Program-made: the position numbers and the translations under genes
DNA from: Embleya scabrispora DSM 41855
Lineage (GTDB): Bacteria > Actinomycetota > Actinomycetes > Streptomycetales > Streptomycetaceae
Reading direction: 5' to 3'
NCBI RefSeq assembly: GCF_000372745.1
Contig: NZ_KB889723.1
Location: forward strand, 1 to 35,587
Length of the DNA stretch: 35,587 bases
Notes under the pieces: model-generated
Database searches by the model: none
Told to the model about the DNA's origin: nothing
What the model saw: the letters and a program-made list of their open reading frames with translations, nothing else
Part shown: positions 1-35,587 of the stretch, piece by piece
Layout: each line of letters begins with the position of its first letter
Numbering within the stretch: position 1 is the stretch's first letter

Positions 1-34
1 CAGCGAGCGCGGGGGGACGAAGTCGCGGGAGCAG

Positions 35-126
35 CGTTGCTTTTTGTTGGGCGCCTTCGGCGCCGGCTCGCGAGGCACCGCCTTTTTCTCTCCCCCGCTT
101 CGCTCCTCCGAGAAAAAGGCGGCCCC
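35..126. repeat. Structured dispersed repeat, left copy (two hairpins)
   Basis: This 92-nt segment recurs near-identically at 35498-35587 in the same orientation. Hairpin A is GGCGCC-TTC-GGCGCC at about 51-65. It is followed by the 8-bp palindrome CTCGCGAG at 67-74, then hairpin B with perfect 13-bp arms, CCGCCTTTTTCTC and GAGAAAAAGGCGG, at about 79-123. The loop of B contains CCGCTTCGCTCC. Relative to the right copy, every substitution or deletion is in a stem and has its partner changed too, so both copies keep perfect pairing. No coding potential is convincing here. The element could be a REP/MITE-like sequence, a structured RNA or a DNA hairpin site; the sequence does not decide. Confidence 0.85.
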
Positions 127-133
127 TCGCTCG

Positions 134-174
134 GGACTTCGTGTCCCTCCGCTTCGCTCCGGGTCACGAAGTCC
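134..174. repeat. Hairpin C next to the left structured repeat
   Basis: Perfect 10-bp arms GGACTTCGTG (134-143) and CACGAAGTCC (165-174) enclose a 21-nt loop. The loop carries CCGCTTCGCTCC, the same sequence found in the loop of hairpin B in the neighbouring repeat. It may be a diverged extra unit of the same family. Whether the right-hand copy also has it cannot be seen, because the window ends there. Confidence 0.75.
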
Positions 175-197
175 AAGTTTGCGGCTCCGCCGCTCTC

Positions 198-210
198 CGC
201 GCTTCGCGCG
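198..210. repeat. Small hairpin D, TTC tip
   Basis: CGCGC-TTC-GCGCG forms a 5-bp stem with a TTC loop, the same tip as hairpin A. It continues the run of hairpins that fills the non-coding stretch downstream of pdxH. Confidence 0.55.
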
Positions 211-220
211 TCGATCACTT

Positions 221-240
221 GGGTGGGCGGGGGTCGGGGG
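221..240 (+). other. G-quadruplex-type G-tract
   Basis: Four runs of three to five G separated by one or two bases occur on the + strand, fitting the usual G-quadruplex pattern. It lies between the hairpin array and the 3' end of pdxH. A similar tract lies near the other end of the window at 35296-35333. Folding is inferred from pattern only. Confidence 0.5.
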
Positions 241-263
241 CGCTGACGCGCCGGGGGGTGGCG
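236..263. repeat. Short repeat shared with 35225-35251
   Basis: The 28-bp string beginning GGGGGCGCTGACG and ending GGGGGGTGGCG recurs at 35225-35251 with only two small differences and in the same orientation. In both places it is the gene-proximal edge of the non-coding flank, so the two flanks share more than the hairpin element. The rest of 1-291 holds no gene I can support. Confidence 0.65.
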
Positions 264-291
264 AGGGGTCGGGCGGATCGGGGGGACGTGC

Positions 292-948
292 TCACGGGCT
301 CAAGCGCTGGACCCGCCATGGCGTGCCCTCGCCGCCTTCGCGCAGGTAGTGCAGTCGGTCGTGCATCCGGTTCTCCCGCCCCTGCCAGAACTCCACCGCG
401 TCCGGCCGGACCCGAAAGCCGCCCCAGAACTCCGGCACCGGAATATCGTCGATGTCCGCGAACCCGGCGGCGGCCTGCGCGTAACGCTTCTCCAACTGCT
501 CCCGCCCGGTCACCACGCTGGACTGCTCACTGGCCCAGGCCCCGATCCGCGAGCCGCGCGGCCGGGAGCGGAAGTACTCGGCGGTGACCTCGCGCGACAC
601 CCGTTCGGCGGATCCGCTCACGATCACCTGGCGCGCGAGCGCGTGCCACGGGAAGAGCAGGCTCACCGCCGGGTTCGCGGCCATTTCGACGCCCTTGCGC
701 GAGCCGTAGTTCGTATAGAAGACGAAGCCGTGCTCGTCGAACTCCTTGAGCAACACCGTGCGCGTGCTCGGCCTGCCGTCCGGCGTCGCGGTCGCGACGA
801 CCATCGCGTTCGGCTCGGGCAGCTCGGCCGCGGCCACCTCGGCCAGCCACGCGGCGAACAACGGGAAGGGGGTCGGCGGCAACGCGCCGACGTCGATGCC
901 TTCGCCTCGGTACTGCCGGCGCATGGCGGCAAGCTCGGTGAACTCCAC
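292..948 (-). CDS. pdxH: Pyridoxamine 5'-phosphate oxidase
   Basis: FMN enzyme that oxidises pyridoxamine or pyridoxine 5'-phosphate to pyridoxal 5'-phosphate, the last step of vitamin B6 synthesis and salvage in the cytoplasm. The protein shows the family order: [11 protein letters not shown] near the start, [24 protein letters not shown] in the FMN/substrate fold, [16 protein letters not shown], then [12 protein letters not shown] and [16 protein letters not shown]. The C-terminal RMHDRLHY matches the family RLHDR substrate motif. The frame is open to an ATG at 1050, but the extra 34 residues look unlike the family. I prefer the GTG at 948, giving about 218 residues; the ATG at 924 is also possible. 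None has a strong ribosome-binding site. It is divergent from the citrate synthase gene. Confidence 0.93.
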
Positions 949-1074
949 GGACAACGAGTACCACTCGGTGCGCGCCGCCGGCACGATCACCCCCGACCCG
1001 ATGACCCCGGGGCGACCGAACCGGGCCGGTTTGTGCCGGACCTCACTCACTCGGACGGGTTCCGGCGTAGGTCG

Positions 1075-1094
1075 TCTCGATATCGAGAGATATC
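1075..1094. promoter_or_regulatory. Overlapping palindromes, candidate operator
   Basis: TCTCGATATCGAGA at 1075-1088 is a perfect 14-bp palindrome. A second GATATC begins 10 bp after the first (1079-1084 and 1089-1094), one helical turn apart. The site is AT-rich for this genome and lies between divergent pdxH and the citrate synthase gene, so it could control either. I do not know the cognate regulator. Confidence 0.55.
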
Positions 1095-1315
1095 CTGACC
1101 GACGGACTTCGATCGGCCCATACCTTCAGGCGAGGCACCATCCCGGCCTCGCCCGGACCGAGCGGAACACCTCCCCGAATCACCGGCGGACCCCAGGTGC
1201 GGAGCATGATCGGCACCATGCGCCCCGGCCTTGTTCGGGGGAAGACACGGTGTGGTAGTGCGGGGTATGAAGGACCCGGCCACAAGTCAGTCGAGATCGC
1301 ATGAGGAGCCGCCTG

Positions 1316-35251: not shown

Positions 35252-35420
35252 TGCGGGGGTGGCGCACTATCCGACGCCCCTCCTGCGGGGGCCGTGGGGT
35301 TGGTAGGGCGGGGTCGGGGGTGTGGGGGCGGGGAGCGGAGACGGGGGTGTGGGGGGCGGGGCGAGGGCGAGCGCGGGGAACGGGACGGGGCCGAGACGCG
35401 GGCACCACGAACAGGGCGGG
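35252..35420. other. G-rich non-coding stretch
   Basis: Strand-asymmetric sequence, rich in G on the + strand, with a G-quadruplex-type tract at 35296-35333. The minus-strand open frames here encode low-complexity Arg/Pro/Ala sequence and have no family signature, so I call no gene. Confidence 0.6.
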
Positions 35421-35499
35421 CGCGGTCGCAGGCACGGCGAGCAGAGCGAGCGCGGTCGCAGGCACGGCGAGCAGAGCGGGCGCGGTCGCAGGCACGGCG
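35421..35499. repeat. 30-bp tandem repeats
   Basis: CGCGGTCGCAGGCACGGCGA plus GCAGAGCGAG repeats at 35421-35450 and 35451-35480 with one difference. A 19-bp partial third unit runs into the hairpin element. A degenerate unit may precede at 35401-35420. There are no spacers, so this is not a CRISPR array. Confidence 0.8.
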
Positions 35500-35587
35500 T
35501 TGCTTTTTGTTGGGCGACTTCGTCGCCGGCTCGCGAGGCACCGCTTTTTCTTTCCCCCGCTTCGCTCCTCCAAGAAAAAGCGGCCCC
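35498..35587. repeat. Structured dispersed repeat, right copy (two hairpins)
   Basis: Same orientation and layout as 35-126. Hairpin A is GGCGAC-TTC-GTCGCC, hairpin B has arms CCGCTTTTTCTT and AAGAAAAAGCGG, and the loop sequence is identical. Compared with the left copy, C-G became A-T in hairpin A, C-G became T-A at the top of hairpin B, and one C-G pair was lost from the base of B. All other positions are identical. The window ends at the last shared base, so the element may continue. Confidence 0.85.

Follow-up and report, generated by a model that had tools for sequence, protein, structure and literature searches.

A dispersed six-hairpin repeat of Embleya with the signature of a fold kept on one strand

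The window analysed here, a stretch of 35,587 nucleotides from Embleya scabrispora DSM 41855, carries two copies of an intergenic repeat of about 210 bp whose relatives are dispersed through genomes of the genus Embleya. A complete copy is a row of six hairpins, the stems of which have changed in a compensated manner and have tolerated, almost exclusively, those departures from Watson-Crick pairing that read as G.U or purine.purine on the minus strand. The repeat is a real, well-supported new family and belongs to a known kind, the small structured intergenic repeats. On balance, and with moderate confidence, the minus strand of this dispersed Embleya repeat is read as being transcribed and as forming a block of RNA hairpins at transcript 3' ends. 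The main rival is that the hairpins form in single-stranded DNA and are read by a putative protein.

Two copies in the window and the architecture of the element

The first-pass annotation had aligned positions 35-126 (92 nt) with 35498-35587 (90 nt) and reported six differences that fall into three facing pairs. Direct reading of the letters gave the same result: hairpin A of the two copies differs by c/a and g/t, and hairpin B differs by c/t and g/a at its tip and by the loss of one C together with its facing G. The repeat indeed lies at 35-126, but this span holds only the 5' part of an element of ~210 bp that continues to position 252 (Table 1); nucleotides 35-43 are upstream sequence that is also present at many other copies and stands outside the element. 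Both copies are likewise genuine, but the family is far larger than a pair, as the first 200 nucleotides of the window gave 44 BLAST matches in the window's genome.

The window is the entire contig C162 of a draft genome of 11.39 Mb in 190 contigs. Both ends of the contig fall inside repeat copies, the second copy being cut by the contig end. Forty of the 44 matches lie no more than about 360 bases from a contig end, which places the repeat among the things that break this assembly; copies at both ends of one contig are expected from breakage at a many-copy repeat. Many of the draft genome's contig ends are explained in this way.

The element was defined from an alignment of 76 distinct near-complete copies, two of which contain N; six printed duplicates and all partial copies were omitted. 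At one gene pair in two genomes the element begins directly after a stop codon, fixing its 5' edge at TTGTTGGGC (window position 44). The conserved 3' end is GCGCTGACGCGCC (window position 252).

Table 1. Features of the window that concern the repeat (positions in the window)
Feature	Positions	Strand	Description
Complete element, copy 1	44..252	- (folding strand)	Hairpins A-F; from alignment of 76 distinct full copies
Hairpin A	50..64	-	Minus-strand loop GAA; 394/395 cells Watson-Crick in 76 copies
Hairpin B	70..130	-	Long stem, arms of 21 here; inner GC-GAA-GC mini-hairpin
Hairpin C	134..174	-	14 positions per arm; inner GC-GAA-GC mini-hairpin
Hairpin D	181..193	-	Minus-strand loop GGA; 370/370 cells paired in 74/76 copies
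Hairpin E	198..210	-	Minus-strand loop GAA or GCA; 376/380 cells paired
Hairpin F	239..252	-	Minus-strand loop GTCA; 3' edge of the element; 380/380 cells paired
Copy 2	35507..35587	-	Hairpin A and most of B only; cut off by contig end
Tandem array	35397..35499	.	30-bp unit, 3.4 units; adjoins 5' side of copy 2
Neighbouring gene	292..990	-	Stop codon facing the element's 3' side; codon-model gene call

The end hairpins A and F are alike, and each is self-palindromic. Among the parsed hairpins A, D, E and F, 301 of 302 have a minus-strand loop of the form G-N-A or G-NN-A, counted with parsing patterns that accepted only loops like those seen. A, E and F were parsed in every copy; the unparsed cases are B and C in L100 and D in L131 and L133, two copies of genome G003 with a different hairpin at the D position, the loop of which is not of the G-N-A kind. 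The middle base of the E loop is variable (52 and 24 copies). Hairpin D never varies and gives no covariation evidence for this reason. In the two full G003 copies the inner mini-hairpin of C has changed from GC-TTC-GC to AC-TTC-GT.

Several copies depart from this plan. L095:2336 is an apparent recombinant with three broken pairs. Hairpin A alone is tandemly repeated beside other parts of the element in L110 (upstream of 2008) and in L022 (G000 contig C2, near 139442-139544), where it seems to be modular.

Compensated changes and strand asymmetry

Two of the three changed pairs noticed in the window lie in hairpin B and the third, c/g to a/t, in hairpin A. Across the family, 8 of 20 pairs in hairpin B and 8 of 13 in hairpin C have changes on both sides. 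For a formal comparison, collapsing the B+C pieces that were identical or contained N left 57, from which L012, wrongly parsed to 52 bases, was then dropped. In the resulting 56 distinct sequences the covariation score is 0.277, compared with 0.134 +/- 0.005 for shuffled alignments and at most 0.086 when the partners are slid against each other; 17 of the 37 B+C pairs have varied in both partners, and standard pairs make up 96% of the cells. Of the five measures in this test, the only unexceptional one is the count of further pair types, 35, which 69 of 500 shuffles also attain. An alignment fold prediction that was supplied with no structure returned 34 pairs, of which 15 have changed in both partners. 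The copies are related and p-values are therefore nominal. The compensated pattern is not due to chance, and by covariation and stem-cell counts the fold looks selected, as the first-pass annotation had proposed.

Compensated changes can be pictured without selection on a fold if DNA template switching within palindromes (quasipalindrome correction) copies one arm onto the other. Changes occur as adjacent blocks on both arms of hairpin C, and the two arms of hairpin B are equal in all 75 parsed copies (20/20 in 59, 21/21 in 14 and 19/19 in 2), as such copying would produce. In L041 (1996-2208, G000 contig C158) both arms of hairpin B are intact and all 19 bases of its loop are inverted, which points to an inversion or a template switch inside the palindrome. 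This mechanism treats the two strands alike, however, and the strands of the element are far from alike.

Among the stem cells of the 76 full copies, 3767 are Watson-Crick and one contains N. The wobble cells comprise 143 A.C on the plus strand, equivalent to G.U on the minus strand, versus 5 G.T on the plus strand; the mismatch cells comprise 170 pyrimidine.pyrimidine on the plus strand, equivalent to purine.purine on the minus strand, versus a single purine.purine on the plus strand. Cell counts tally inherited changes many times. Counted by position and genome, the ratios are 21 to 5 for wobbles and 16 to 1 for mismatches, and counted by position alone the wobbles are only 11 to 5 and the mismatches 8 to 1. 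Fourteen hairpins outside the 76-copy set, most of them from the same genomes and with L055, a chance match outside the genus, excluded, gave 17 versus 2 wobbles and 17 versus 0 mismatches. The excess of A.C is present in each of the four genomes (13/2, 25/1, 100/2 and 5/0). The RNA minimum free energy is lower for the minus strand in 57 of 74 copies.

Ratios of 143 to 5 and 170 to 1 are not what a strand-blind process would give. Template switching also fails to predict mismatches kept at one place, and in hairpin C, where a purine.purine mismatch recurs on the minus strand, the pyrimidine.pyrimidine cell of the plus strand sits at pair 4 in 72 of 75 copies. We consider template switching as the source of the compensation very unlikely. 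Judged by the cell counts, the fold is maintained on the minus strand. Uncompensated stem changes in further copies, which the first-pass annotation had named as evidence against a selected fold, do occur on the plus strand only, where the minus strand has G.U.

A second process that needs no function is one-directional deamination in an inert selfish repeat: G to A on the plus strand alone would yield A.C cells, and a genus-wide spread without a known role would suit a selfish element. Deamination is a transition and cannot alone yield the 170 pyrimidine.pyrimidine cells; moreover, the loops have retained their terminal G and A, and the A.C excess recurs in all four genomes when stem cells are counted. 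An inert repeat marked by deamination is accordingly held to be improbable, at the same low level as template switching.

Neighbouring genes and the proposed role

The repeat is intergenic. At 63 loci, a few of which lack any called gene, no called gene is overlapped by more than 30 bp, which upholds the earlier remark that no coding frame explains it. Neighbouring genes were called with a home-made codon model. Of 34 genes that lie within 300 bp on the 3' side, 29 face the element with their stop codon; without a limit on distance the figure is 36 of 50, and the other 14 point away. With shared genes collapsed, by hand from the locus pairs that share them, the counts are 21 of 25 and 27 of 39. 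On the 5' side, the stop faces the element in 29 of 45 cases within 300 bp and 45 of 87 at any distance. By these gene calls the element has a side bias. The copy in Embleya sp. NBC_00888, which those counts do not include, agrees: a gene 199 bp away faces it with its stop. Where copies form tail-to-tail doublets, the neighbour on the 3' side is a second copy of the element.

Copy 1 follows the pattern, with 35 bp between the BLAST match at 44-257 and the gene listed in Table 1, which we take to be pdxH-like. The stretches beside the same gene in G001, G002 and G003 contain no element; the Ms_IGR-5 sRNA (RF02471) is found downstream of that gene instead (L158 457-695, L159 478-716 and L160 843-1080).

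Since the stop of the 3'-side gene faces the element, read-through RNA from that gene would be the minus strand, and the strand transcribed in this way would be the strand that keeps the pairs. The wobble and purine-mismatch asymmetry and the neighbour-gene asymmetry thus agree, and the functional strand may be readable from sequence alone; the family is unusual for this clear strand signature. Strand evidence and gene context together favour an RNA in 3' untranslated regions over other readings. In the proposed mechanism, transcription of the gene at the 3' side of the element would run on into the element and yield minus-strand RNA as a 3' untranslated region, which would fold into a string of very stable hairpins. 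The hairpin row may then stop transcription without a U-tail, block 3'-to-5' decay, or do both, and a near-palindromic element could also act from the opposite side. We infer all three of transcription, action on RNA 3' ends and spread as a unit.

The element does not have the form of a canonical intrinsic terminator. No U-tract directly follows any of the six hairpins, and the long T/A runs lie within stem B. A consensus scan of positions 1..1300 found two weak terminator-like sites, both inside the element, with 0.8 expected. The element resembles the U-less (I-shaped) terminators of GC-rich bacteria, with strong GC hairpins past stop codons, and at one convergent gene pair, X/Y, it occupies a site that in a relative carries one perfect hairpin. 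U-less terminators are single-locus hairpins and do not form a six-hairpin repeat family. In the Streptomyces griseus Term-seq study, structured 3' ends without a terminator motif are assigned to U-less terminators or Rho-dependent ends (PMC8914203).

The pair X/Y allows a direct comparison. The element directly follows the stop of X in G001 and G002. The 82 bp between the two genes in G000 contain a 15-bp perfect hairpin and no element, and in G003 X is present and followed by other DNA. By this comparison, the element at this pair stands in place of an ordinary hairpin. A far-reaching extension of the preferred reading would be that a genus-wide RNA module took over 3'-end formation at many core-chromosome genes and replaced their terminators, with a dedicated protein reading GCGAAGC hairpins and purine.purine pairs, and that it spread outside the known transposase classes. 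We regard this extended version as unlikely. With this family one can ask directly whether selection acts on small intergenic repeats of GC-rich actinobacteria in their capacity as 3'-end RNA.

In single-stranded DNA, too, G.T and purine.purine pairs are tolerated and GNA loops, a known ultra-stable mini-hairpin motif of DNA, are formed, so the strand signature does not prove an RNA. The corresponding rival holds that the repeat is non-autonomous mobile DNA, that minus-strand single-stranded hairpins are recognition sites of a trans-acting recombinase or replication protein, and that the bias to gene ends reflects tolerated insertions. The G-N-A and G-NN-A loops, almost without exception on the minus strand, and the similarity of the end hairpins A and F would fit such sites. 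The non-random orientation relative to genes argues against it; further evidence on both sides comes from the distribution of the copies.

Distribution, spread and relation to known systems

Dozens of copies are found in the genus. BLAST matches, fragments included, number 42 in G000, 29 in G001, 50 in G002 and 23 in G003, and G002, the most contiguous genus genome, has 55 motif copies. NBC_00888 is a fifth genome with a single copy seen, 92% identical. A 25-base core pattern compared with 84,980 species, a set that may omit the window's own genome, matched 17 stretches in two genomes only, 15 in Embleya hyalina NBRC 13850 and 2 in Streptomyces sp. SID3343, both of which belong to the window's genus by the taxonomy used in the genome search. 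A covariance model of hairpins C and B matched 4 of 249 family genomes, all in Embleya, and none of the 245 outside the genus, with 16 candidates scored per genome. A DNA search of 196 genomes outside the genus (4 candidates scored per genome) gave nothing but weak matches, none longer than 58 bases, in 12 of them. Within the searches made, the repeat appears restricted to the genus Embleya.

The Embleya genome has been described as a linear chromosome of 7.1 Mb plus a secondary one (PMC13152386); the words 'palindrom', 'hairpin' and 'intergenic' are absent from the main text of that paper. No paper on this repeat was found in the open literature, a scope outside which most subscription journals fall. 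In G002, 29 of 33 sites are on the 7.0-Mb contig C1, and 25 of those 29 lie in its middle 1.5-5.5 Mb, limits that were picked once the positions were known; the other contigs have few sites. The copies may serve as markers for Embleya chromosome structure. A plasmid- or phage-borne repeat was considered and rejected: no phage record matched, and the one plasmid record is a 5.73-Mb Embleya replicon (NZ_CP108785), which has the element at one place only.

Orthologous sites are occupied in some species and empty in others. Eight locus groups share the 3'-side gene, one spanning G000, G002 and G003 (L016, L091 and L131) and another G000, G001 and G002 (L032, L092 and L114). At site L086 the element is present in G002; G001 has arrays, the 3' end of the element and a run of Ns, and the genes are separated by 119 bp in G000 and about 60 bp in G003, both without the element. 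The repeat has thus been kept for long at some sites and is absent at others, and its sequence is species-specific: the hairpin A motif of G000 has 39 matches in G000 versus 1, 1 and 2 in the other genomes.

Many copies occur in pairs. G002 has 12 two-copy '+-' sites, and the array site, which holds nine copies, also starts '+-', giving 13 tail-to-tail pairs (L078, L082-L084, L087, L089, L090, L094-L096, L098, L099 and L104); no head-to-head pair is found among the G002 doublets. The spacer of 114-150 bp looks homologous by eye in 13 of 13, and the doublets apparently spread as composites of about 540 bp.

Copy number, species-specific variants, doublets, the array and empty orthologous sites all fit mobile DNA. 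The search for machinery covered the Y1, Y2 and reverse transcriptase families. The Y1 (HUH) transposase domain PF01797 was detected in none of the four genus genomes, while 5 of 14 control genomes were positive. Spread driven by a reverse transcriptase was rejected as well, as G002 and G003, with many copies, gave no match; G000 gave two and G001 one. No IS91-type Y2 transposase was matched, in a search whose positive control was equally silent. At the clean site X/Y, neither a terminal inverted repeat nor a target duplication was seen by eye, and the element-free relative has 82 other bases there. Mobile single-stranded DNA hairpins are possible but rather unlikely, and an RNA hairpin block at transcript 3' ends is the reading preferred here.

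The first-pass annotation had left open a structured RNA, a protein-bound DNA hairpin or a new REP/MITE-like family. A new repeat family it is, but the REP/RAYT type is disfavoured. REPs are imperfect palindromes of 20-40 bp with a conserved GTAG-type 5' tag. Like REP and BIME sequences mobilized with RAYT, the Embleya copies are imperfect intergenic palindromes, and their inverted pairs with a conserved spacer are BIME-like; unlike them, the unit is about 210 bp, starts with TTGTTGGGC in place of a REP-type tag and short palindrome, and occurs in four genomes that all lack a Y1 match. Rfam 15 gave no match in the window at the gathering score (best 21.5 bits against a gathering score of 90), and the window contains no tRNA or tmRNA.

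Streptomyces telomere hairpins and the d(GCGNAGC) mini-hairpin likewise have, on a single DNA strand, GNA loops and purine.purine pairs. The Embleya element has both, but its copies lie along the chromosome, mostly in the middle 4 Mb of G002 C1.

In size (about 100-200 bp), dispersal and stable stem-loops the element is like ERIC/RU-1, NEMIS/Correia and related small mobile intergenic repeats, which are transcribed with their neighbours and, in tested cases, act on mRNA (PMC2229807). Such repeats carry terminal inverted repeats, a target duplication, often TA ends and one long 5'-3' stem. The Embleya element is a row of six separate hairpins with no such ends seen. Also comparable are the CcrM-associated intergenic repeats (CIR) of Caulobacter, which consist of separate hairpin arms with a linker between them, lie outside genes and are likewise listed as lacking a terminal inverted repeat (PMC2229807). 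CIR differ in occurring in other taxa and in having two arms and a GANTC site at a loop.

Many copies, including the second one of the window, have tandem arrays of ~30-bp units on their 5' side; the units differ by site, as judged, apart from copy 2 and one further locus, by eye. The array units often contain a GTCGYGA-like core.
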